Origin: an uncultured Tropicimonas sp.
GTDB taxonomy: Bacteria; Pseudomonadota; Alphaproteobacteria; Rhodobacterales; Rhodobacteraceae
Assembly: GCA_947497945.1 (NCBI GenBank)
Contig: CANMIP010000005.1
Location: 1-64,000 of the forward strand
DNA: 64,000 nucleotides
Direction: 5' to 3'
In this document: in pieces, positions 28,934 to 56,061 of the stretch
Layout of the letters: every line of letters starts with the position of its first letter
Position numbering within the stretch: the first letter of the stretch is position 1
The notes under the pieces: generated by a model
The model's input: the letters and a program-made list of their open reading frames with translations, nothing else
What the model was told of the DNA's origin: nothing
Database searches by the model: none
Program-made: the position numbers and the translations under genes

Positions 28934-29193
28934 TTGAACCTCCATGTTCGCCAGGATATCCGCGATGTGTCGCATATGGCCGTGATGAGAAAGGCCACCG
29001 CATCCCTTGGCAATCCTGCGCGTGACTTATCCTCAGGCAATTGCCTTCGAACAGGGCAGAGCGCCTGGTTGCGACATTATTATGCGCCTAACGCCCAAGG
29101 AAAGGGCAACCTTCGCGCAGTTCGAGGGCATCTGTGCAAAATCTGCACATCATGCGCGATTTCCCTGCACGTCCGGCTGCGAGCCATGGGCAC
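28934..29193. other. Divergent intergenic region, BMP importer / exosortase operon
   Basis: This region between two divergently read operons must contain both promoters. I could not place a convincing -10/-35 pair or a purine riboswitch-like fold by eye. Confidence 0.4.
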
Positions 29194-30651
29194 ATGCAGA
29201 AAGCCTTTCGCCCCCTCGCCTGGACATTGTTCGCCGCCGCCTCGCTGATCCTTGCCTGGGAGCCGGCGCGATGGCTGGCGCGGAGCTGGCAGGACCCGGC
29301 TTATGATTCCATCGGCCTTGTCTATGCCTGCGCCGTTGCGGCGCTGGCGCTGCGCTCTCTGGTGAGCGGCCGGCCGCAGGGCTCTGCCTCCGAAAGGCTT
29401 GGCCTCTTCCTGCTGGTGGCGGCCGGGCTGCGGCTGGCGGCGCAACTGCTGGCGATCAACCTTGTCGGGGGCATTGCGCTTGCGGTCGATCTCTACGCGC
29501 TGGCAAAGCTCGCGGGGCTGGAGCGCCGACCCGTGCCGCTGGCGCCATTCTGGCTGTCGGTCCTGTTCCTCTTCTCGCTGCCGGTGGAGGCGGTGGTCGA
29601 GCGGTTGCTGGGCTTTCCGCTGCAGCTGCTGTCCGCGCAGCTCTCCTGCGGGCTGCTTGGGCTTGTCTTCGAGGACACGGCCTGTGTCGGGATCCGGATC
29701 ACGCTGGCCGGGCAGGATGTACTGGTTGACCTGCCCTGCGCGGGGGCTTCGGGGCTGCTGCTCCTGCTCGGCTTCTTCGTGGCGATGAATGCGGTGATGC
29801 GACCGCGCTGGCCCGTGGCCCTTGTCTGGCTGGCGGCGACGCTTGCGCTTGCCTTGCTGGGAAACAGCCTGCGGATCGCCCTCCTGGCGGCGGGGCTCGC
29901 GCTCGGCATCGAGATGATGGCGGAGCCGTTGCATTCGCTGAGCGGGCTTGTGACGCTTGCCCTGTCCGCTCTGCCGCTGGCGCTCTGGTATCGGCCCGCG
30001 CCGGCGCGCGCCCCGGTGCCGCACAGCGCCGCGCGCCCTGTCGCCGCGCCGCTGCTCGTGGTGGCGGGCTCTGCCTGCCTCGCCGCCGCGCTCTGGATCG
30101 TTGCCCAGCCGGCCCGACCCGTCGATATCTCCCAACCGTTCGCCCCGGACGCCCTGCCCGCACAGCTTGCCGGCCAGCTTCGCGCCGATATCCCGCTCTC
30201 TCCGCTCGAAGACCACTATTTCCGCGCCTATGGCGGCGACGCGCAGAAGGCACGATATGGCCCGCTCGGCCTGACCCGCATCCGCACCACCTCGCCGCTG
30301 CGCCACCTGCACAGCCCCGATGCCTGCCTGCGGGGTCTGGGCTTCGATGTCACCTTCCTCGGCACCCGCCATGACGGCGCCCCTGCCGCGATCTACCGCG
30401 CCACCGGGCCGGACGGGCGCGGTTGGCAGGTTGCCGTCACCATCATCGCGCCGGGCGGACGCATGGTTCCCAGCATTGGCGAGGCGGTCTGGCTCTGGCT
30501 GAACGGTCAGGACGGCCAATGGACCGCGTTGCAACGGATCACCCCGCTCGGACTGCCCCCGCAGCAGGTGGGCGCATTGGAGGCCGCCGCCTTCGCCGCG
30601 CTCGACCTCCCCCTTCCCAATCCCCTAGGCCCAGAGGAGCCCGCCTCATGA
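29194..30651 (+). CDS. Exosortase with C-terminal EpsI-like domain (dedicated type)
   Basis: This 485-aa integral membrane cysteine protease-transpeptidase homologue has about eight helices followed by a C-terminal extracytoplasmic domain. The exosortase catalytic triad is visible: Cys182 in DLPCAGASG, Arg227 in GNSLRIA, and His247 in EPLHSLSG. The soluble C-terminal part contains HSPDACLRGLG, comparable to the H-P-x-x-C motif of EpsI domains. The start could also be 29134 or 29152; no strong ribosome-binding site helps. Its stop overlaps the start of the VIT/vWA gene (ATGA), so the two are coupled. It is distinct from the XrtD-like enzyme at 48072-49682, which has ACSGLR and NALRIA. No polysaccharide genes flank it. 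Confidence 0.88.
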   Translation: MQKAFRPLAWTLFAAASLILAWEPARWLARSWQDPAYDSIGLVYACAVAALALRSLVSGRPQGSASERLGLFLLVAAGLRLAAQLLAINLVGGIALAVDLYALAKLAGLERRPVPLAPFWLSVLFLFSLPVEAVVERLLGFPLQLLSAQLSCGLLGLVFEDTACVGIRITLAGQDVLVDLPCAGASGLLLLLGFFVAMNAVMRPRWPVALVWLAATLALALLGNSLRIALLAAGLALGIEMMAEPLHSLSGLVTLALSALPLALWYRPAPARAPVPHSAARPVAAPLLVVAGSACLAAALWIVAQPARPVDISQPFAPDALPAQLAGQLRADIPLSPLEDHYFRAYGGDAQKARYGPLGLTRIRTTSPLRHLHSPDACLRGLGFDVTFLGTRHDGAPAAIYRATGPDGRGWQVAVTIIAPGGRMVPSIGEAVWLWLNGQDGQWTALQRITPLGLPPQQVGALEAAAFAALDLPLPNPLGPEEPAS

Positions 30652-32657
30652 GACATCCTCGTTTCCGAATCTTCCTGCTGCTGATGTATGTCTTCAGCGC
30701 CCCCGCGCTCGCCGCGCCGGAAGAGCCCGCCGGACATCTGCTGGGCGAGCTTCACGGGCAACCTGTTGCCCTGCCCATGTTGCGCAGCGATTACGAGATC
30801 GACATTGCCGGCGATCTTGCCCGCGTGACCCTGACCCAGGTCTTCGAGAATCCTTACGAAGCGCCGATGCGGGCCGAGTATTTCTTTCCCCTGAACCGTC
30901 AAGCGGCGGTACATGCGATGGAAATGGAGCTCGCAGGCGAGACGATCCGGGCGCAGATCAAGCGCAGGCAGGAGGCCGAGGCGAGCTTTGCGGCGGCCGA
31001 GAAGGACGGCAAGGCGGCTGCGCTGCTGACCCAACGTCGTCCGAACATGTTCACCCAGACACTCGCAAACCTGGTGCCCGGCCAGCCGGTTACGGTGCGG
31101 TTGAGCTATGTCCAGCCGGTGCCGCGCATCGATGGCGCCTATGAACTGGTCGTCCCGCTGCTGGTCGGGCCGCGATATGAAGGCCCGCAGGGGGGCAGTG
31201 CCGCGGTCACGGAGGCGGATGGCTGGGAGCTGAAAAAGCTTCCGGCGGCACCGGTCTTCGGGCTGGACCTGCCCGACCGGCTCGCGCCGGAGCGGGTCTC
31301 TCTGGATTTGTCCCTGCGTTCGGCGCTGCCGGTGATCTCGCTGAGTTCGCAGACCCATCCGCTCGAGATCGTCGAGAAAGACGGCGTGCAGGAGGTCCGC
31401 TTCGCCACCGGCCGCGTGCTCGACAATCGCGACCTGGTGATCCGGTATATCCTCGGCGGGGCACAGCCCACCGCCGGCGTGATCGCGCATCGCGACGATA
31501 CCGGCGGCTACCTCTCGCTGATGGTCGAGCCGCCCCGCAGCTCCGAGGCGATGGAGCCGACCGCGCGCGAGATCGTCTTCGTCCTCGACAGTTCCGGCTC
31601 GATGGGGGGCGATCCGATTGCGGCGTCCAAGCGGTTCATGGCCGCGGCGCTGGACGGGCTGCGGCCACAGGATCACTTCCGGATTCTCTCCTTCGCAACC
31701 GAGACCCATCATTTCGCCGAACAGTCCCTGCCGGCCAATCCGTCCAATCTCAAGGCGGGGCACCGCTTCGTGCGCGGCCTGGAAACGGGCGGCGGGACGG
31801 ATATCTTCGGCGCTGTGCGCACCGCGCTGAGCGTGGACCAGCCGGAGAACAGGCTGCGGCTCGTGGTCTTCCTGACGGACGGCTATATCGGCGACGAGGC
31901 GAGCGTGCTGCGCGAGATCCGAGGCCGCATCGGCGCTGCGCGGATCTATGCATTCGGGATCGGCGCTTCGGTCAATCGCTACCTGCTGGAAGGCATGGCC
32001 GAGGAGGGGCGCGGCTATGCGCGCTATGTCGACCCGACCCAGACCAGCACGGAGGCCGCCGAGCAACTCGCTGCTGACCTGCGCACGCCGCTGCTGACCG
32101 ATGTTTCGATCGACTGGGGAGGGATGGCGGTCTCCGAGGTGACGCCGGCGCGGCTGCCCGACCTTTTCGACGGCAGGTCCCTGCGGCTCCTGGCGCGGTT
32201 CGAAGGGGAGCTGCCGGAAGAGATCCGGGTCACCGGACGCGTGGCGGGGCAGTCGGCGTCGCTGCCGGTCAAGCTGCGCGAGATCGCCGAGGAGAGCGAA
32301 GACGGCGCGGCGCTGCCGCTGACCTGGGCTCGCAGCCGGATTGCCGATCATGAACGCGCGCTGGCGGTGCGCGACGGCGATGCCGGCGCGCGCGAGGCGG
32401 ACATCACCCGGCTCGGGCTGGACCACGGGCTGCAAAGCCGCTTCACCTCCTTCGTCGCGATCTCCGAACAGGTGATCAATCCCGGCGGCAAATCGGACCC
32501 CGCCTCCGTGCCGCTGCCACAGGGCGCCGGTGTGCCGGCCACGGCCTATCCGAGCTTCGGTGGCGCCTCGACGCCCGAGCCGCCGGCCTGGTTCGGGGTG
32601 CTGCTGCTGGCGGCTTTCGGTGCGCTGCGGCTTCACCGGGGCAAGCGGGACTGTTAA
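30648..32657 (+). CDS. VIT and vWA domain protein with PEP-CTERM-like sorting signal
   Basis: This 669-aa exported protein is the probable sole substrate of the exosortase encoded just upstream. Residues 1-23 are a signal peptide. Residues ~28-160 form a VIT domain (RSDYEIDIAGDLARVTLTQVF, then VFENPYEAPMRAEYFFPL). A von Willebrand A domain follows with an intact MIDAS, DSSGS at 314-318, with GGGTDIF and LTDGY completing it. The C-terminus has TPEPPAW, a hydrophobic stretch (FGVLLLAAFGAL) and basic RLHRGKR: the three-part layout of PEP-CTERM signals. The start overlaps the exosortase stop by 4 nt. Similar VIT/vWA proteins are targets of the proteobacterial dedicated sortase. Confidence 0.88.
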   Translation: MRHPRFRIFLLLMYVFSAPALAAPEEPAGHLLGELHGQPVALPMLRSDYEIDIAGDLARVTLTQVFENPYEAPMRAEYFFPLNRQAAVHAMEMELAGETIRAQIKRRQEAEASFAAAEKDGKAAALLTQRRPNMFTQTLANLVPGQPVTVRLSYVQPVPRIDGAYELVVPLLVGPRYEGPQGGSAAVTEADGWELKKLPAAPVFGLDLPDRLAPERVSLDLSLRSALPVISLSSQTHPLEIVEKDGVQEVRFATGRVLDNRDLVIRYILGGAQPTAGVIAHRDDTGGYLSLMVEPPRSSEAMEPTAREIVFVLDSSGSMGGDPIAASKRFMAAALDGLRPQDHFRILSFATETHHFAEQSLPANPSNLKAGHRFVRGLETGGGTDIFGAVRTALSVDQPENRLRLVVFLTDGYIGDEASVLREIRGRIGAARIYAFGIGASVNRYLLEGMAEEGRGYARYVDPTQTSTEAAEQLAADLRTPLLTDVSIDWGGMAVSEVTPARLPDLFDGRSLRLLARFEGELPEEIRVTGRVAGQSASLPVKLREIAEESEDGAALPLTWARSRIADHERALAVRDGDAGAREADITRLGLDHGLQSRFTSFVAISEQVINPGGKSDPASVPLPQGAGVPATAYPSFGGASTPEPPAWFGVLLLAAFGALRLHRGKRDC

Positions 32658-32681
32658 GGCGGGATCGACGGAGGAAACGAG

Positions 32682-33377
32682 ATGCAGGCAGCGCCCTACA
32701 AGGTCCTGATCGTCGATGACGATCCGGGTATTCGCGAGGTGATCGCCATCGCGCTGGAAGATGCCGGCCTGCGCTGCCGGCAGGCGAGCAACGGCCAGGC
32801 GGGGCTGGTGGACGTGGACCGGAACGCGCCCGATCTTGTCATCCTCGATATCGGCATGCCGGAGATGGACGGGTTCGAGACCTGCCGCGCGATCCGGCGC
32901 CAATCCGCCGTGCCGATCCTGTTCCTCACCGCGCGGGACGAGGAGATCAACCGCATCCTCGGCTTCGAGCTTGGCGGCGACGACTACGTCACCAAGCCTT
33001 TCAGCCCGCGCGAGCTGGTGTTGCGGGTCAAGGCGATCCTTGCGCGGGCCAATGGCGCGCTGCACCAGGAGGAGCGGCTCGGCCACGGGGTGCTCGAGAT
33101 GGTGCCCGCGCGCCATCACTGCACCCTGGCGGGCCAGCCGGTCGAGCTGACGGCGACGGAGTTCCAGCTCCTCGCCGCCTTGCTGCGCTCGGGCGAACGG
33201 GTGCTCACGCGCGACCAGCTTATCCAGGCCGTCTATGGCGCGAGCGCCCAGCATTCGGACAGGACCGTCGACAGCCATATCCGCAACCTGCGGCGCAAGG
33301 CCGCTGCGCTTGGTGTCTCGGATCTCGTGTCGACAGTGCATGGGGTCGGGTTGAAGCTGGGCACATGTCGTTTGTGA
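32682..33377 (+). CDS. OmpR-family response regulator of the exosortase operon
   Basis: This 231-aa regulator has an N-terminal receiver domain (acidic pocket VDDDPG, phospho-acceptor Asp56 in VILDIGMPEMDG, switch Thr in FLTARDEE, Lys in VTKPFSPREL) and a C-terminal winged-helix DNA-binding domain (TATEFQLLAALLRSGERVLTR cut; ending DRTVDSHIRNLRRKAA). It begins 24 bases after the VIT/vWA stop and overlaps the kinase start by 13 nt. By analogy with the dedicated sortase system, it probably controls the operon or the surface response in which the VIT/vWA protein acts. No target site was identified. Confidence 0.93.
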   Translation: MQAAPYKVLIVDDDPGIREVIAIALEDAGLRCRQASNGQAGLVDVDRNAPDLVILDIGMPEMDGFETCRAIRRQSAVPILFLTARDEEINRILGFELGGDDYVTKPFSPRELVLRVKAILARANGALHQEERLGHGVLEMVPARHHCTLAGQPVELTATEFQLLAALLRSGERVLTRDQLIQAVYGASAQHSDRTVDSHIRNLRRKAAALGVSDLVSTVHGVGLKLGTCRL

Positions 33378-34951
33378 GTGTCCGGCGGAAATGGCGCCCG
33401 CCGCTCTGGTTGATGATCGCAGCACTGGTGGGATTGCTGACAGCCTTGCCGCTGGTCGGGCTGGTGATGGCCCGGCTGGCCGATGACCAGTTCCTGCGCG
33501 AGACGGAGCGAAGCCTGATCGACCAGGCGGCCATTCTTGCCGCGCTGCATGCCGACGCGCTGGCCCGCGCCAGGGCGGAGGATCTCCCCGGCATCCCGCT
33601 CTCCGAGGCCGCACGGATGCGCCTGGCCGAGGATTTCCACCCGGTCGAGCCGCGACTGTCGCTTGCGACTGCGGAGATCGACCCGCCGGCGGAAGCGGTC
33701 GAGCCGGCGGAGGGCGCACTCCATCCCCTGCATGAACAGCTCGCCGCCCCGTTGTCCGAGCTGGCACAGAGGGTCCAGAAGACGACGCTGGTCGGCTACC
33801 GCTTCACCGATTCAGAGGGGCGGGTGGTCGCGTCGAGCGGCGAGGGGCACGGACGTTCCCTGGCGCATCTGCCCGAGGTCTCGGCGGCCCTTTCGGGCGA
33901 GGTCGCCACGCGCCTGCGTTATCGCAAGCCGCTGGAGACGCGCGACCGGATCGGTTCGATCAGCCGTGACACGCTGTTCCGGGTCCATGCCGCGCATCCG
34001 GTGATACTCGGGGACCGGATCGTCGGCGCTGTCCATCTCTCGCGCACGCCGGACGGGCTGATGGATTTCCTCTATCGCGAGCGCGCCCCGCTGACGGGCG
34101 TTCTGATCGGGATGGCCACAGTGGCCCTGGTGATCGGTTTCGTTTTCTGGCGCACGATCTCGGCGCCGATCCAGGCCCTGCGGGACCAGAGCCAGGAGGT
34201 GGCGAGCGGGGCTCGTCCAGCGCCCGTGCCGCTGCGCCATTACGGGATGCGCGAGCTGGCGGAACTGGGGCAGAGCCTGCTCTCCATGGCGTCCAGCCTG
34301 TCGGAACGGTCCGAGGCGATCGGCACCTATACGCAGCATGTCACCCATGAGCTGAAGTCGCCGGTCACGACCATTGTCGGCGCAGCGGAGTTGCTGGAGA
34401 TGGCGGGGGATCGGCTCGAGCCCGAGCAACGGGCGCGGCTCTTGGCGCAGATCCATGCAGAGGGGCTGCGGATGGATGCGCTGCTGTCGCGGCTGCGCGA
34501 GCTGGCCCGGGTGCGGGGGCTCACGGGCGCGGAGACAACCAGACTGGAGGCCGGGGTTGCACGCATTCGAGCGAATTTCCCGGAGCTGGAGCTTGCCCTG
34601 TTCGCGCCGGAGGGCTGGCAGGTCGCACTGTCGGGAGATGAGCTGGAGATCGTCCTGACCCAGCTTCTGCGCAACGCGTCCGAGCATGGCGCGACGCGGG
34701 TCGAGCTGGAGGTCCTGCCCGAGGTGCAATGCCTGGTTGTCCGCGATGACGGGTCGGGCATTTCGCCGGGCAACGCGGCGCGGCTCTTCAATCCCTTCTT
34801 CACCACCCGCCGCGAGGCGGGCGGCACCGGGATGGGGTTGGCCATCGTTGTCGCGATCCTCGAGCGGCGGCGAGGACGGATCGGGGTGGAGGACAGGGCA
34901 CAGGGCGCGGCCTTTCGGCTTTACCTGCCGTCGGAGCCACGCGGCGTCTGA
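33365..34951 (+). CDS. Sensor histidine kinase of the exosortase operon
   Basis: This 528-aa inner-membrane kinase has a transmembrane helix at about residues 16-38, a periplasmic sensor region of about 210 residues, a second helix near 245-265 (GVLIGMATVALVIGFVFW) and a HAMP-like linker. The catalytic core follows: phospho-acceptor His328 in THELKSP, N-box LLRNASEHG, G1 DDGSGIS, F-box NPFFTTRR and G2 GGTGMGLAI. All required residues are intact. It overlaps its cognate regulator gene and closes the four-gene operon. The ligand is unknown, but a link to the state of the exported VIT/vWA protein is an attractive guess. Confidence 0.92.
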   Translation: MSFVSVRRKWRPPLWLMIAALVGLLTALPLVGLVMARLADDQFLRETERSLIDQAAILAALHADALARARAEDLPGIPLSEAARMRLAEDFHPVEPRLSLATAEIDPPAEAVEPAEGALHPLHEQLAAPLSELAQRVQKTTLVGYRFTDSEGRVVASSGEGHGRSLAHLPEVSAALSGEVATRLRYRKPLETRDRIGSISRDTLFRVHAAHPVILGDRIVGAVHLSRTPDGLMDFLYRERAPLTGVLIGMATVALVIGFVFWRTISAPIQALRDQSQEVASGARPAPVPLRHYGMRELAELGQSLLSMASSLSERSEAIGTYTQHVTHELKSPVTTIVGAAELLEMAGDRLEPEQRARLLAQIHAEGLRMDALLSRLRELARVRGLTGAETTRLEAGVARIRANFPELELALFAPEGWQVALSGDELEIVLTQLLRNASEHGATRVELEVLPEVQCLVVRDDGSGISPGNAARLFNPFFTTRREAGGTGMGLAIVVAILERRRGRIGVEDRAQGAAFRLYLPSEPRGV

Positions 34952-47131: not shown

Positions 47132-48085
47132 GTGGAGCTGTTCTATTGCAGATTGCCCAGGGGGAATTTCGGGGATGACCTGAATCTCTGGCTCTGGGAT
47201 GCGATCCTGCCCGGGTGGCAGGGGCTCGGACAGGCAGGCGAGACGCTCTTCGGGGTCGGGACCCTCCTGAGCGAGGGCAACCTTCAGAAGTTCTCGCGTC
47301 CGCTCGTTCTCGGGAGCGGCACGGGATATGGCGCCCCGCCTTCCGCGGACAGTCTTTCCCGCTGCGATATCCGGGCGGTGCGCGGCCCGCTCACGGCCCG
47401 ACGCCTCGGCCTTCCCGAGACGGTCCTGATGCTGGATCCGGCGATGCTTTCTCCGGATGTCCTGCACTTGCCCGTCCCGTCACAAACAGGGCATCGGCCG
47501 ATCTTCGTTCCCCATCACACGACGGCTGCGCTGTCCCTGCGCTGGCACCAGCTCTGCGACGATGCAGGACTCGATTTCGTCAGCCCCGAAGGGGACTCAC
47601 GGGAGGTGATTGCCCGCATCTCCCAGGCGGATTTCGTCCTCGCGGAGTCGATGCATGCCGCGATCCTGGCGGATGCGTTCCGCGTTCCCTGGATCGCTGT
47701 CCGGCTGAGCGACTCCTTCAATCAGTTCAAATGGAACGACTGGACGCTGTCGCTTGGGGTGGATGTTGCCGCAGCGGATCTCTTGCGGCGCTACCGTTGG
47801 CTGTTTCGGCAAAGGCCTGCACAGCCCGAGGACCGGAACGCGGCTGGACCGGAACGCACGCCTCTCGTTGGAGAAACGCCGGTCGTCGCGCCGCCGAGCG
47901 GGGACGCGCGCAAGAGGCTCAAGCGTTTGCTGGAGAGATTTCGGCCCCTGGTCGAGCGCCAGATTTGCGCCGCCCTGCGGCGGGCAAAAACCCTTCCGAT
48001 GCATCTGTCCGACGCGACAATGCTTGCAAAGAGAAAGGCGCAGTTCCGGGCTGAAATCGAGCGGGTGCGCTGTGATCTCTCTTGA
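47132..48085 (+). CDS. Polysaccharide pyruvyl transferase family protein
   Basis: This 317-aa protein matches the PS_pyruv_trans family that adds pyruvate ketals to exopolysaccharide sugars. RGNFGDDLNLWLWDAILP is the N-terminal signature, and FVLAESMHAAILADAFRVPW is the C-terminal signature with its SMHAAI block. The start is GTG with AAGG upstream. The last ~70 residues are basic and may be a tail. It overlaps the downstream exosortase gene by 14 nt, so pyruvylation and exosortase functions are co-expressed. Confidence 0.86.
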   Translation: MELFYCRLPRGNFGDDLNLWLWDAILPGWQGLGQAGETLFGVGTLLSEGNLQKFSRPLVLGSGTGYGAPPSADSLSRCDIRAVRGPLTARRLGLPETVLMLDPAMLSPDVLHLPVPSQTGHRPIFVPHHTTAALSLRWHQLCDDAGLDFVSPEGDSREVIARISQADFVLAESMHAAILADAFRVPWIAVRLSDSFNQFKWNDWTLSLGVDVAAADLLRRYRWLFRQRPAQPEDRNAAGPERTPLVGETPVVAPPSGDARKRLKRLLERFRPLVERQICAALRRAKTLPMHLSDATMLAKRKAQFRAEIERVRCDLS

Positions 48086-49682
48086 CGCACAGTGCAGACC
48101 GCCCCGCTACGATGCGGCGACCGGGCGGAACCTGCCGCTCGGGGCGGGTCTCCTGCTCCTCGCGCTTTTCTCTGCGGGGTGGTTCCTGTTGCCGGGGCTG
48201 CAAGCGCTGTTTCATGCCTGGAAGACGCCGGAATACAGCCACGGCCCCCTGATCCCGATCCTCTCCCTTGTTCTCTTTCTTCGGCATATCAAGCTCTCGC
48301 CGGCGGGCTCAGGCGCGCCTGGCCTGGCCTGGCCTGGCCTCGCCATCACCCTGCTTGCCTTGCTGCTCGGTCTTGTCGGACGGTTGGCGAGGATCGACGA
48401 GATCGTGGCCTATGCGCTGATCTTGTGGATTGGCGGCACGCTTCTTGTCATCTGTGGGTGGCAGCGCGGCCGACAGTTCTGGCCTTCCATCCTGCATCTT
48501 GTCTTCATGCTGCCCTTGCCGGGTCTGTTTTATTACAAGCTCTCCGCCGCCCTGCAGCTGATTTCTTCGGAGCTTGGTGTCGCGATGCTGCGCCTGGGGG
48601 GGATCTCTGTCTTTCTCGATGGCAATATCATTGACCTCGGGAGCCTCCAGCTTCATGTGGCGGAGGCCTGTTCGGGGCTTCGGTATCTCTTTCCGATCCT
48701 CAGTTTTTCCTACGTCTTCACCATCCTGCACAATGGCCCGGTCTGGCAGCGGGTGCTCCTGCTGATGGCCGCGGCCCCTATCACCATCGTCCTGAACGCG
48801 CTGCGCATCGCTGCGGCCGGTGCTTTCGTGCAGATGCGTGGTGTCGTTCCAGCCGAAGGATTCCTGCATTTCTTCGAGGGCTGGGTCATCTTCCTGGCGT
48901 CGGTGATGTTACTGATGCTGCTTGCCGGCCTGCTGTCCCGAATCCAGCCTGCCAGCGGCGAGCCGTCGCCTCCATCCGGACCGGACGGTCGCAACTCAGT
49001 GGCGCAGCTTGCCCGACTGCGCAGTCTGCCAGCGCGACCAGCGCTCGTGCTCGCGGTCTTCCTGCCCCTGATCGCGACAGGGCTGCTCTCGGCACTCCCG
49101 CATTCCGGCGCAGGGAATGTCGAGCGCTCTCCCTTTGCCCTTTTTCCGGACCGGCTCGGTTCCTGGCAAGCTGGTCCGCCGGAGCGGCTTCCGGCCGAGA
49201 TCCAGGGGACACTCGGGGCGGATGATTATCACAAGGTGGTGCTGACACAGGCGGAGGCGGCACCGGTGCGGCTCTTCACTGCATGGTACGCCGATCAATC
49301 CGCTGGCGGTGTACATTCGCCCGAAATATGCCTTCCTGGAGCAGGTTGGGAGATCGCAGCTCTTAAACGGATCGACATTTCCGAGCGAACCGGATCGCCA
49401 GATGCTTTTCGGATCAATCGCGCCGTGATCCAGAAAGGGAACGTTCGCCAGATGGTCTTTTACTGGTTCGATCAGAGGGGACGAAAGGTCGCCTGGGACT
49501 TCGTCGCCAAGGCCTGGCTTCTGGTTGATGGCGTGCGATCTGGCCGGACCGATGGGGCCCTGGTCGAACTGACAACGCCGATCCTGCCGGGCGAAGGTGA
49601 AGCTGCGGCTGAGGCGCGACTCCTGTCGGTTGTCAGCAGGCTTGTTCCGGTCCTGCCGCGATTTGTGCCGATCGGGGACTAG
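48072..49682 (+). CDS. xrtD: Exosortase, VPLPA-CTERM type (XrtD-like) with EpsI domain
   Basis: This 536-aa protein has about eight transmembrane helices and a C-terminal EpsI domain. Catalytic residues are Cys200 (AEACSGLRYL), Arg245 (LNALRIA) and His266 (EGFLHFFEGW). The C-terminal domain has GGVHSPEICLPGAGW as in EpsI. In Rhodobacterales, exosortases of this build sort VPLPA-CTERM proteins; one such protein is at 693-1343. GTG at 48072 is the best start and overlaps the previous gene. The remainder of the EPS locus lies downstream, as expected for exosortase loci. Confidence 0.88.
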   Translation: MISLDAQCRPPRYDAATGRNLPLGAGLLLLALFSAGWFLLPGLQALFHAWKTPEYSHGPLIPILSLVLFLRHIKLSPAGSGAPGLAWPGLAITLLALLLGLVGRLARIDEIVAYALILWIGGTLLVICGWQRGRQFWPSILHLVFMLPLPGLFYYKLSAALQLISSELGVAMLRLGGISVFLDGNIIDLGSLQLHVAEACSGLRYLFPILSFSYVFTILHNGPVWQRVLLLMAAAPITIVLNALRIAAAGAFVQMRGVVPAEGFLHFFEGWVIFLASVMLLMLLAGLLSRIQPASGEPSPPSGPDGRNSVAQLARLRSLPARPALVLAVFLPLIATGLLSALPHSGAGNVERSPFALFPDRLGSWQAGPPERLPAEIQGTLGADDYHKVVLTQAEAAPVRLFTAWYADQSAGGVHSPEICLPGAGWEIAALKRIDISERTGSPDAFRINRAVIQKGNVRQMVFYWFDQRGRKVAWDFVAKAWLLVDGVRSGRTDGALVELTTPILPGEGEAAAEARLLSVVSRLVPVLPRFVPIGD

Positions 49683-54303: not shown

Positions 54304-56061
54304 CTAGGGCTGTTTCAGGGCGGTGGGAACAGCGGACCGGTTGATGGGATCGGCCAGTGCAAATTCACGAATGTGAAGCGTGAAGGCGTCATGCGCAGTC
54401 CCGGCGGCGGTTCGGCCTTCCTGTCGAGACAGGCGGGCGAGGGTATCCTTGATCCGGGTTGCGCTGGTCATGTCGGACAGTCCGAGATGGACCATGCCGA
54501 GCTCGAACAGGAGCGAGATGTCGTCCGGATTCCTTTGAAGCGAGCGCGCCAGGGTTTCTCGAGCGAGTTGGAGACGTTCTTCCGAGACCAGAAGCCGCGC
54601 AAAACGAAGAGACTCCTCGGGCGCGGCTCCCGAAGCGTCCACGGCTGCCGCAAGCATTTGGCGTTGCAGGTCGGAATCTCCGGAACGTGCATGGGCGGCG
54701 GCCATCAGGGACAGGATCTGGGGGTCGCGGGGGGCGTTTCGCAAGGCGCCGCGCAGGGTTGCAATGGCGTCTTCGCTGCGGTCCGTTCGGATCTGCGAGG
54801 CGCCATACATTTTCAGTGCCTCGATATTGCCCGGTTCCTCGACAAGGATGTTCTCAAGCAACGGCACGGCACCTTCCGGGTCGCCGGCTTGATGTTTCAT
54901 CCGAGCCAGGTCGAGAAGGTTTTTTGTTTTTGAGTAAGGATTTGTCCCCGACTTGACCTGTTCCTGAACCAGCTCTTCAAGTTCGGCTATCGCCATCGAA
55001 CGCGCGCCGGTCCTGAAATGCAGTTTGGTTCGCATGGCCCGAACGCTTGCGACATGTGGCCCGCCTTTCGTGATCGCTGCGTTCAGTTCTCGCAGGGCCG
55101 CAGGGATGCCCTCTTGTTTGAGAAGGAAGGCGATGAGGTGTTGGTAGGCCGCGCCGTCGGGCGCAGACGCTGCGCGGGCGCGCAGAAAGGCTTCGGCTCT
55201 ATCGGGCTGATCCTGATGCAGGTACCAGCCGACCAGCGTCTCGGGCAACGCTTCCTGCTCCGGGAAACGTGCGATCATCTCTTCGAGCTGCCGCGTGATG
55301 GCCTCGATGTGCCCGAGCTTTTGCAGAACGATCAATCGCAGTTGCAGGAGTTCCAGATTGTCGGGAAAGTGTCCGAGGGCCCGGTCCGTCGCTTCCAGCG
55401 CGGAGTGCCATGACCGCTGGCGCATCCTGAAATCGATACACAAACGGTGCAGCCCGATATTCCGGGGAACCTGAACCAGAAGCGTTTCGGCCTCTGCGGC
55501 GAAATGTGTCCGTGCACCGAGTTCGCCGGATTTCAGCGCTCCGCGATAGTCCAGAACCAAACGAACCGCGCGGGTCTGAGGGGTATCGCCCTGAAGCCTG
55601 GCCGCCTCGCTTGCATATTTCTGCACGGCCACCCAATCGCCCTGCTCAAGAGCAATTTCCGCCAGCGCCAGATGCCCGGCGCCGTTTTCGGGATGTGTCC
55701 TGACCAGGGCCAGGTATTCTCGGGCCGCGAGAGGAAGCGCACCTTCGGCTCGCCGCGACTCCGCCAACATCAGGCGAGCCTGTTCATGTTCCGGCATCAG
55801 TTGAAGGGCGTTGCGCAGTTCGAGAACTGCCCGCGCTGTGTCTCCGTCTTCCAGAAGGCCCGAAGCCGTCCTGACGAATTTATCGGCCCGCAGTTCCGGG
55901 CTCTTGCACCCGGTCATGAGCAGCAGGGCACAAAGAATGAGCAGCGAAGTCAGAAGACGGATCACCCGATTGTCTCGCTTGTTTTCGCCCGAGTGATTCT
56001 CCCTCGGCGCGGTGTCACGATCAGATCGCGGATTTGCATCTGGTCTCTGCCCGGCCAGCAT
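54304..56061 (-). CDS. TPR-repeat lipoprotein of the exosortase system (PrsT-like)
   Basis: This protein (585 aa as read, 553 aa from a GTG at 55965) has a lipoprotein signal with lipobox LLMTGC, then KSPELRADKFVRTA and a long series of TPR helices (ALELRNALQLMPEHEQARL-like units). This layout matches the TPR lipoproteins of PEP-CTERM/exosortase loci. The GTG start gives a normal signal peptide and seems more likely; the upstream segment is charged. It is divergent from the PEP-CTERM-type ATPase gene with 183 bases between. It probably scaffolds the glycan or sorting machinery at the outer membrane. Confidence 0.8.
   Translation of the reverse strand: MLAGQRPDANPRSDRDTAPRENHSGENKRDNRVIRLLTSLLILCALLLMTGCKSPELRADKFVRTASGLLEDGDTARAVLELRNALQLMPEHEQARLMLAESRRAEGALPLAAREYLALVRTHPENGAGHLALAEIALEQGDWVAVQKYASEAARLQGDTPQTRAVRLVLDYRGALKSGELGARTHFAAEAETLLVQVPRNIGLHRLCIDFRMRQRSWHSALEATDRALGHFPDNLELLQLRLIVLQKLGHIEAITRQLEEMIARFPEQEALPETLVGWYLHQDQPDRAEAFLRARAASAPDGAAYQHLIAFLLKQEGIPAALRELNAAITKGGPHVASVRAMRTKLHFRTGARSMAIAELEELVQEQVKSGTNPYSKTKNLLDLARMKHQAGDPEGAVPLLENILVEEPGNIEALKMYGASQIRTDRSEDAIATLRGALRNAPRDPQILSLMAAAHARSGDSDLQRQMLAAAVDASGAAPEESLRFARLLVSEERLQLARETLARSLQRNPDDISLLFELGMVHLGLSDMTSATRIKDTLARLSRQEGRTAAGTAHDAFTLHIREFALADPINRSAVPTALKQP

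Follow-up and report, generated by a model that had tools for sequence, protein, structure and literature searches.

Comparative analysis of an exosortase T locus from an uncultured Tropicimonas sp. points to a dedicated module with one VIT/vWA substrate, a linked two-component system and a phased operator

Introduction

Many exosortases serve numerous substrates, and to our knowledge it is still unsettled what the bacterial enzymes attach their targets to. A locus from an uncultured Tropicimonas sp. (Rhodobacteraceae; contig CANMIP010000005.1 of assembly GCA_947497945.1, positions 1 to 64,000, the whole stretch of 64,000 nucleotides analysed being referred to as the window) raises the question of whether an exosortase may be devoted to a single protein and carry its own regulation. 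Four open reading frames (ORFs), all on the + strand (29194-30651, 30648-32657, 32682-33377 and 33365-34951), are joined in order by a 4-nt overlap, a 24-nt gap and a 13-nt overlap, and encode an exosortase, a VIT/vWA protein, a response regulator and a histidine kinase. This tightly coupled arrangement, proposed by a first-pass annotation of the DNA, was borne out in coordinates, strand, overlaps and gap. We consider it likely that the four genes form a complete dedicated exosortase module, comprising one enzyme, one VIT/vWA substrate and a linked two-component system under operator control. Comparison of related loci (L numbers below) and genomes (G numbers) shows the pairing of enzyme and target, one good tail match in each genome tested, a regulator that travels with them in most loci and an operator. 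The features of the module are as follows.

29194..30651, + strand: xrtT, exosortase T, 485 amino acids; NF033770 and PF09721 matches, C182/R227/H247, EpsI-like C-terminal part with invariant H371, H373 and C378
30648..32657, + strand: VIT/vWA protein, 669 amino acids, proposed only substrate; N-terminal signal sequence (by eye), VIT, vWA with intact metal-ion-dependent adhesion site (MIDAS), PEP-type C-terminal tail
32550..32654, + strand: sorting tail PSFGGASTPEPPAWFGVLLLAAFGALRLHRGKRDC of the VIT/vWA protein, from alignment and tail profile
32682..33377, + strand: OmpR/PhoB-type response regulator, 231 amino acids; best named match CreB, below cut-off
33365..34951, + strand: sensor histidine kinase, 528 amino acids; best named match CreC, below cut-off
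29132..29170, + strand: putative operator, the proposed binding site of the linked regulator, with three half-sites spaced in multiples of 11 bp: CTGTGC (29132), CTGCAC (29143) and CTGCAC (29165)

Exosortase T and its partner

The window exosortase is a full member of the named family exosortase T (XrtT), matching the NF033770 model over its whole length (1-472 of 472; 594.8 bits, cut-off 250), while the runner-up family, XrtO, reaches 53.9 bits; it also exceeds the cut-off of Pfam PF09721 (66.4 bits). The idea that the enzyme is undescribed was ruled out, since the family already bears a name. XrtT is sparsely distributed: the cut-off is passed in 10 of 394 genomes sampled from the bacterial family of the window, in 2 of 398 sampled from its phylum and in 1 of 60 from near relatives, each count taking in the genome of the window itself, and none was found in the 8 other genomes of the genus. 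A scan of one genome per species with two peptide patterns retrieved 119 XrtT relatives, the best 80 of which were combined with the window into a set of 81 loci; these relatives are labelled mostly as Alphaproteobacteria, but also as Gammaproteobacteria and Nitrospinota, and many come from metagenome bins and may be mislabelled.

The Cys/Arg/His triad that had been reported as intact (C182, R227 and H247) is identical in 81/81 XrtT sequences, as are C152, C164, H371, H373 and C378, the conservation of C182, H371 and H373 being partly selected because these residues sit in the peptide patterns used to find the loci, which R227 and H247 do not. Together with a multi-helix membrane domain, the C/R/H residues are features of the exosortase/archaeosortase superfamily. 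An AlphaFold model of XrtT (mean predicted local distance difference test score 88.3) has a helical N-terminal part; the model matched no solved structure (best E 0.044, probability 0.20), and neither did the sequence at E 1. The C-terminal part could be aligned by hhalign to the EpsI part of XrtD (probability 83%, E 9e-6), with which it has HSPxxCL in common, and the NCBIfam EpsI models gave no match to the window XrtT at E 0.01. The HxH and nearby Cys of this part (H371, H373 and C378), invariant in 81/81 sequences, hint at another active site or at a metal site.

The search for the same neighbourhood in other genomes, advised by the first-pass annotation, recovered a VIT/vWA relative in 81/81 XrtT loci and a regulator/kinase pair in 65/81. 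The VIT/vWA gene directly follows xrtT in 80/81; in L088 the gene after xrtT is the first of two VIT/vWA pieces, and in L113 the VIT/vWA gene lies ~5.5 kb beyond it. In the window, the partner scores 99.3 bits for VIT and 72.4 bits for VWA, and its sequence relatives include inter-alpha-trypsin inhibitor heavy chains and PARP4. Its best family is TIGR03788, the dedicated sortase target, with 447.3 bits, below the cut-off of 551.65. The MIDAS, likewise described as intact, is indeed preserved, D/S/S being kept in 79/79 rows with letters at these positions and T and D in 78/78.

The VIT/vWA protein of the window ends in STPEPPAWFGVLLLAAFGALRLHRGKRDC, that is, in a PEP motif, a helix and a basic C-terminal end, in agreement with the PEP-CTERM-type tail of the first-pass annotation. 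Three of the 81 targets are cut by a contig end; among the 78 left, PE[PA] is present in 75, HEP replaces it in L061, and L059 and L107 have short tail-less ORFs. A consensus of 40 tails reads xFSGSSxPEP, followed by a hydrophobic stretch and a basic end, with the PEP motif near-universal and the sequence of the helix drifting. In the targets of L048, L049, L050, L053, L054, L058, L071, L072, L082 and L110, 61-72 residues follow the PEP motif, and several of these Stappiaceae/Rhizobiaceae-like proteins carry an RxDxWW(L) stretch near the end.

The exclusivity of the pairing was assessed in 45 genomes for exosortases and TIGR03788, namely that of the window and those of 44 among the 80 relatives, and in 32 of these 45 for tails and PF07589. 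In 32/32 genomes, a 32-column tail profile returned a single match below E 0.01, always the target of the module, the best non-target match over all of them having E 0.02. XrtT is the sole exosortase found in 27/45 genomes, and PF07589 (E 0.1) matches in 14 of the 32. A single target per genome and the adjacency of enzyme and target (80/81 loci) are what is expected of a dedicated system, and the proposal of one substrate for one enzyme is upheld by the tail profile. The contrary case, an exosortase clade occurring with many PEP-CTERM proteins and not with VIT/vWA, was looked for and is contradicted by the constant pairing and the tail scans.

The two-component system and the operator

The genes following the target encode, as had been stated, a response regulator (Response_reg and Trans_reg_C domains) and a histidine kinase (HAMP, HisKA and HATPase_c domains). 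With 220 bits for CreB (cut-off 273) and 166.1 for CreC (cut-off 356), both are CreBC-like by their best family match and score below the cut-offs of these families, and the regulator also stays well below the cut-off of TIGR03787, the regulator family of the sortase system (131.9 against 335.7 bits). The 65 linked pairs lie downstream in 55 loci, upstream on the same strand in 5 and divergently in 5; the matches in L107 belong to other large proteins and were not counted. In blast clusters of the neighbouring genes, only exosortase, VIT/vWA protein, regulator and kinase recur widely, the next clusters (21 and 13 loci) occupying scattered positions. A cluster of 9 loci (L073, L084, L087, L101, L117 and others) has a DUF4153 membrane protein, as assigned from 3 of its members, directly after the target, and it is possible that this protein is an accessory of the XrtT pair.

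The claim that the module has its own two-component system is strengthened by a shared operator. In ten Ruegeria/Shimia loci, unconserved DNA upstream of xrtT ends in a conserved island. Among 79 upstream regions, pairs of TGCNC are spaced 22 bp apart in 33 and 33 bp apart in 21, other spacings within 14-32 bp occurring in 0-5; mononucleotide shuffles yield 22-bp pairs in 0.8 regions on average and in at most 4. In a count of all 6-mers, CTGCAC is the most widespread (71 regions), followed by TGCACA (68), with one or the other in 72, against 7/74 for each in control regions further upstream. Pairs of TGCRC at multiples of 11 bp are found in 57/79 regions, compared with 1-8 for the other ten phases and 2/74 for phase 0 in the controls, in counts that, like all site counts given here, ignore the shared ancestry of the loci. 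Phasing at 11 bp is typical of OmpR/PhoB-type regulators.

In the window, the site (CTGTGC-N5-CTGCAC-N16-CTGCAC, 29132-29170) places its middle half-site 50 nt before ATG 29194, in keeping with its relatives, where, for 24 of the 35 sites identified in 33 loci, the next in-frame start codon follows at a distance of 48-50 nt. The longest possible xrtT ORF begins at GTG 29134, within the operator; because of this overlap and of the conserved distance, the start at ATG 29194 adopted in the first-pass annotation is favoured.

CTGCAC or TGCACA is present in 63/63 evaluable loci with a linked pair, whereas the 7 regions with neither 6-mer all belong to loci where no linked pair was seen, 2 of the regions being too short to tell. 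The same 6-mers precede 3/24 sortase-linked targets and 0/12 TIGR03787 regulators. A stricter form of this association, in which the operator at fixed spacing occurs only with a linked regulator (48/64 against 2/16 or 0/9; Fisher 7e-6 and 2e-5), proved misleading and was dropped because the pairless loci L087, L093 and L108 carry repeats 44 bp apart. Where the regulator pair forms a separate upstream operon (5 loci), repeats stand before both genes in 2 (L081 and L089); on account of this double placement, the circuit is probably autoregulated. A genome-wide scan with the three-site pattern (up to 3 mismatches) in 15 genomes chosen for repeats near xrtT gave xrtT alone as the best match in 12, and in G1019 the best match lies before the regulator gene, with xrtT second. 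Near position 9505 of L067, and 436 bp ahead of the xrtT site, lies another operator-like site that deviates from the pattern by 1 mismatch.

Relation to the dedicated sortase system

The first-pass annotation held that an exosortase has replaced the sortase in an otherwise parallel module. Targets over the TIGR03788 cut-off occur in 22 of 240 genomes of the window's class, and 20 of these loci (all but those of G979 and G042) were examined with their surroundings. A sortase relative adjoins the target in 20/20, in an ORF ending just after it. The tails carry LPxx[AS][ST] before the final helix in 16/20, and an AT motif without LP in L162, L165, L166 and L167; no PEP tail was seen among these 20 targets. 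Conversely, XrtT adjoins all four PEP-tailed targets of the class sample (the window and L168-L170), which are all below the TIGR03788 cut-off; L168 lies on a short contig where no regulator was seen. The weak matches left in the class sample were partial or other VIT/vWA proteins, three of which served as outgroups. No VIT/vWA protein over this cut-off was found in the 45 XrtT genomes.

A quick tree of VIT/vWA proteins was computed without their tails and with four far relatives as root, branch support being given only by the Shimodaira-Hasegawa-like approximate likelihood-ratio test (SH-aLRT). The 45 XrtT-linked targets (42 of the 81 and 3 from the class sample, L169 repeating L099) fall on one side (support 100) and 24 sortase-linked targets on another (92), the root having a support of 12. 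XrtT-linked and sortase-linked targets would accordingly seem to be sister clades, although the rooting is weak. Of the proposed replacement, the homology of the targets stands, whereas the two sister clades and the poorly supported root give no direction to the exchange.

The idea of an otherwise parallel module found no support in the form proposed. No relative of the window's regulator was found in the 20 class sortase loci within the stretches covered, and weak kinase matches lie away from the target in 3 of them. The TIGR03787 cut-off is passed by a regulator in 13 of 249 genomes from other classes; 12 of these loci were examined, 8 with a kinase match and 4 with a target and a sortase. 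The window regulator scores higher with E. coli PhoB (151 bits) and CreB (150) than with the 12 TIGR03787 regulators (91-126), and the window kinase higher with CreC (85) than with the 8 kinases of these loci (29-66). In a tree that included 32 of the 65 XrtT regulators, the 12 TIGR03787 regulators form a clade (100/100) and the XrtT regulators lie on one side only weakly (66/0) and need not share a single origin; E. coli CreB joins the TIGR03787 group (95/86), a join flagged as a long-branch one, and this placement does not favour an origin of the XrtT regulator from CreB. The regulated XrtT and sortase modules look like separate recruitments.

Surroundings of the module

The module is preceded by a Bmp/ABC/permease set and followed by genes for an AMP-binding enzyme and an adenine deaminase; these flanking genes are unrelated to it, and the statement that no polysaccharide genes adjoin it holds. 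A consensus promoter and terminator scan gave nothing above chance. The window contains a second exosortase that had passed without mention and serves as a contrast case outside the module:

47754..49682, + strand: XrtD with EpsI domain, within a polysaccharide cluster; TIGR04152, 559 bits (cut-off 400)

From ~45.8 kb to the end of the window, XrtD is surrounded by glycosyltransferases, a pyruvyl transferase, Polysacc_synt and a weak Wzy-like gene, with a TPR protein (54304-56061) near these polysaccharide genes, and a VPVPA-type sorting tail at the left end (1257-1331) belongs to a probable XrtD substrate. A stretch of 721 bp that begins ahead of the XrtD ORF and extends into it, coding DNA included, also holds CTGCAC/TGCACA and a loose 11-phased TGCRC pair, of which nothing was made.

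Proposed function and alternative explanations

In the working model, the VIT/vWA protein would be exported by Sec and held in the membrane by its C-terminal helix. XrtT would then cleave it at or near the PEP motif through Cys182, assisted by Arg227 and His247, and pass the cleaved protein to an acceptor, which may be a lipid or an envelope glycan. The cysteine mechanism would resemble that proposed for the archaeosortase ArtA, in which, in a model that its authors call speculative, a cysteine-bound target is passed to a lipid (PMC7157517, in part). The metal-binding vWA head would be displayed, probably as part of an adhesin-like surface protein. Passages of two reports tie exosortases to such functions, a cyanobacterial enzyme being described as essential for motility and biofilm (PMC12188702) and a Flavobacterium gene as having a role in surface colonization (PMC10936215); by analogy with these, a role of the XrtT module in adhesion appears reasonable. 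The kinase would sense an envelope cue, and the regulator, once phosphorylated, would act on its own operon by binding to the CTGCACA operator, which is kept across Alpha- and Gammaproteobacteria and Nitrospinota. A further and more tentative idea, which we regard as possible though rather doubtful, is that of a closed sense-and-display circuit, in which the kinase would watch the envelope step served by XrtT, the regulator would control little beyond the operon, and enzyme, sole substrate and regulon would form a portable unit assembled separately from its sortase analogue; the cue might then be free acceptor, unprocessed target or the ligand of the vWA head.

Several observations weigh against an exclusive partnership of XrtT with its target, and some of them would suit an enzyme of broad specificity, which also processes ordinary PEP-CTERM/VPLPA-CTERM proteins and has the VIT/vWA gene as a mere neighbour. 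Non-target PF07589 matches occur in 4 of the 27 genomes where XrtT is the sole exosortase found (G996, G1014, G1021 and G1025). Litoreibacter roseus (G1014, locus L068) has 12 of them, but all are [VI]PxPA-type, the type served by XrtD, and their presence without a second exosortase in the assembly may reflect a recent loss or an assembly gap; the genome of G996, with 8 matches (7 beyond the target), is only 64% complete; G1021 has one further tail, of PEP type; and the single match of G1025 is neither PEP nor VPxPA-type. On the other hand, in 23 of the 27 PF07589 matches either nothing or only the VIT/vWA tail, and the 6 matches in the window's genome, where XrtD is present, are all VPxPA-type. 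A broad XrtT is on these grounds highly unlikely. It must also be considered that the tail profile was made from these same tails, that the Pfam PEP-CTERM model PF07589 did not match the window tail (E 0.01 in the protein, E 0.1 at 32550), and that the ~60-70 residues after the PEP motif in some Stappiaceae and Rhizobiaceae-like loci are unusual for such a tail, PEP tails usually having no extension beyond the helix. A plain helix with a basic end could also be a mere membrane anchor that is never cut; yet the motif is kept in 75/78 tails while the helix drifts, sortase-linked homologues have another motif at the corresponding position (of LP type in 16/20), and the C/R/H residues of XrtT are retained in 81/81 sequences, so that we give this alternative the smallest chance of all.

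With respect to regulation, linkage of the regulator/kinase pair to xrtT is not obligatory, no pair being seen in 16/81 loci: the sequence available beyond the target is <1.3 kb in 7 of them and >=3.9 kb in 9. Four of these 9 (L087, L093, L108 and L110) still carry CTGCAC/TGCACA, as would be the case if the operator were read by a regulator other than the linked one. The site is nevertheless present in all evaluable loci with a linked pair, and the regions that lack it all come from loci where no pair was seen (Fisher 9e-6 in the comparison with the 9 pairless loci that have room, uncorrected for shared ancestry); its phasing and its presence before both xrtT and the separate regulator operon of L081 and L089 also favour the linked regulator, and a different reader seems unlikely. 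The genome scan weighs in addition against a regulator confined to the module. In the window's genome, for which 11 of 15 matches were seen, the best score, 2 mismatches, is shared by the xrtT site and one unrelated place; in G1022 it is the site before the regulator that shares its 2 mismatches with an unrelated place, the xrtT site having 3; G1038 has a 1-mismatch second site 436 bp before that of xrtT, and others with a similar core; and matches outnumber the reversed-pattern control in 14/15 genomes. Because of these tied and further close sites and of the excess over the control, a wider regulon beyond the module is possible. As to the origin of the module, a recent exchange, in which the exosortase took the place of the sortase in an existing sortase/VIT/regulator module of this lineage, would agree with the homology of the targets and with the regulator found beside some sortase/target pairs elsewhere (4/12 TIGR03787 loci). 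It is very unlikely in view of the separate positions of XrtT-linked and sortase-linked targets (supports 100 and 92), for which one old switch in either direction suffices, and of the separate regulator clades.

Comparison with known systems

XrtT as a named family, the idea of a dedicated system and the exchange of tails among VIT/vWA proteins are already known; the 11-bp-phased CTGCACA operator ~50 nt before xrtT is new here. The window enzyme is a full-length member of exosortase T (NF033770), to which the partner, exclusivity, regulator and operator worked out here are added, although the NCBIfam text may already name the partner. A non-exhaustive search of the open-access literature found no paper containing both 'XrtT' and 'exosortase', and no account of the module, its regulator or its operator.

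In the sections consulted of Haft & Varghese (2011; PMC3237569), the term 'dedicated system' is defined, and VIT/vWA homologues are described with GlyGly-CTERM tails, with LPXTG tails and a dedicated adjacent sortase, or with PEP-CTERM tails, the example of the latter being one Verrucomicrobium spinosum protein. Their rhombosortase/GlyGly-CTERM pairs resemble the XrtT module as dedicated pairs with exchanged tails in VIT/vWA proteins; the XrtT module, regulator and operator are not found in the same passages.

Among the exosortases, XrtN resembles XrtT in having a named target family (TIGR04477, 'sorted_by_XrtN'), and its targets contain a VIT domain. XrtT, however, falls far short of the cut-off of the XrtN model (47.5 against 200 bits), and TIGR04477 gave no match in the whole window. 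XrtD, of the XrtD/VPLPA-CTERM system, shares with XrtT a fused EpsI-type C-terminal domain, but it is associated with a polysaccharide cluster and with six VPxPA tails in the genome, as opposed to the one PEP-tailed target of XrtT.

A module of one enzyme, one substrate, one regulator and one operator should make it possible to find, in one strain, where the target is cut, which acceptor receives it and what signal induces the system, and its recurrence with its control sequence in distant bacteria makes it a simple test case for exosortase function. Its closest counterpart is the proteobacterial dedicated sortase system (TIGR03784/TIGR03788/TIGR03787), which likewise has one enzyme, a VIT/vWA target in the next gene and, in some genomes of other classes, a regulator alongside, and which differs in enzyme family, tail, target clade and regulator clade. 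Some bacteria would process these apparent sister VIT/vWA proteins with a sortase and others with an exosortase, which offers a clean natural comparison between the two systems.

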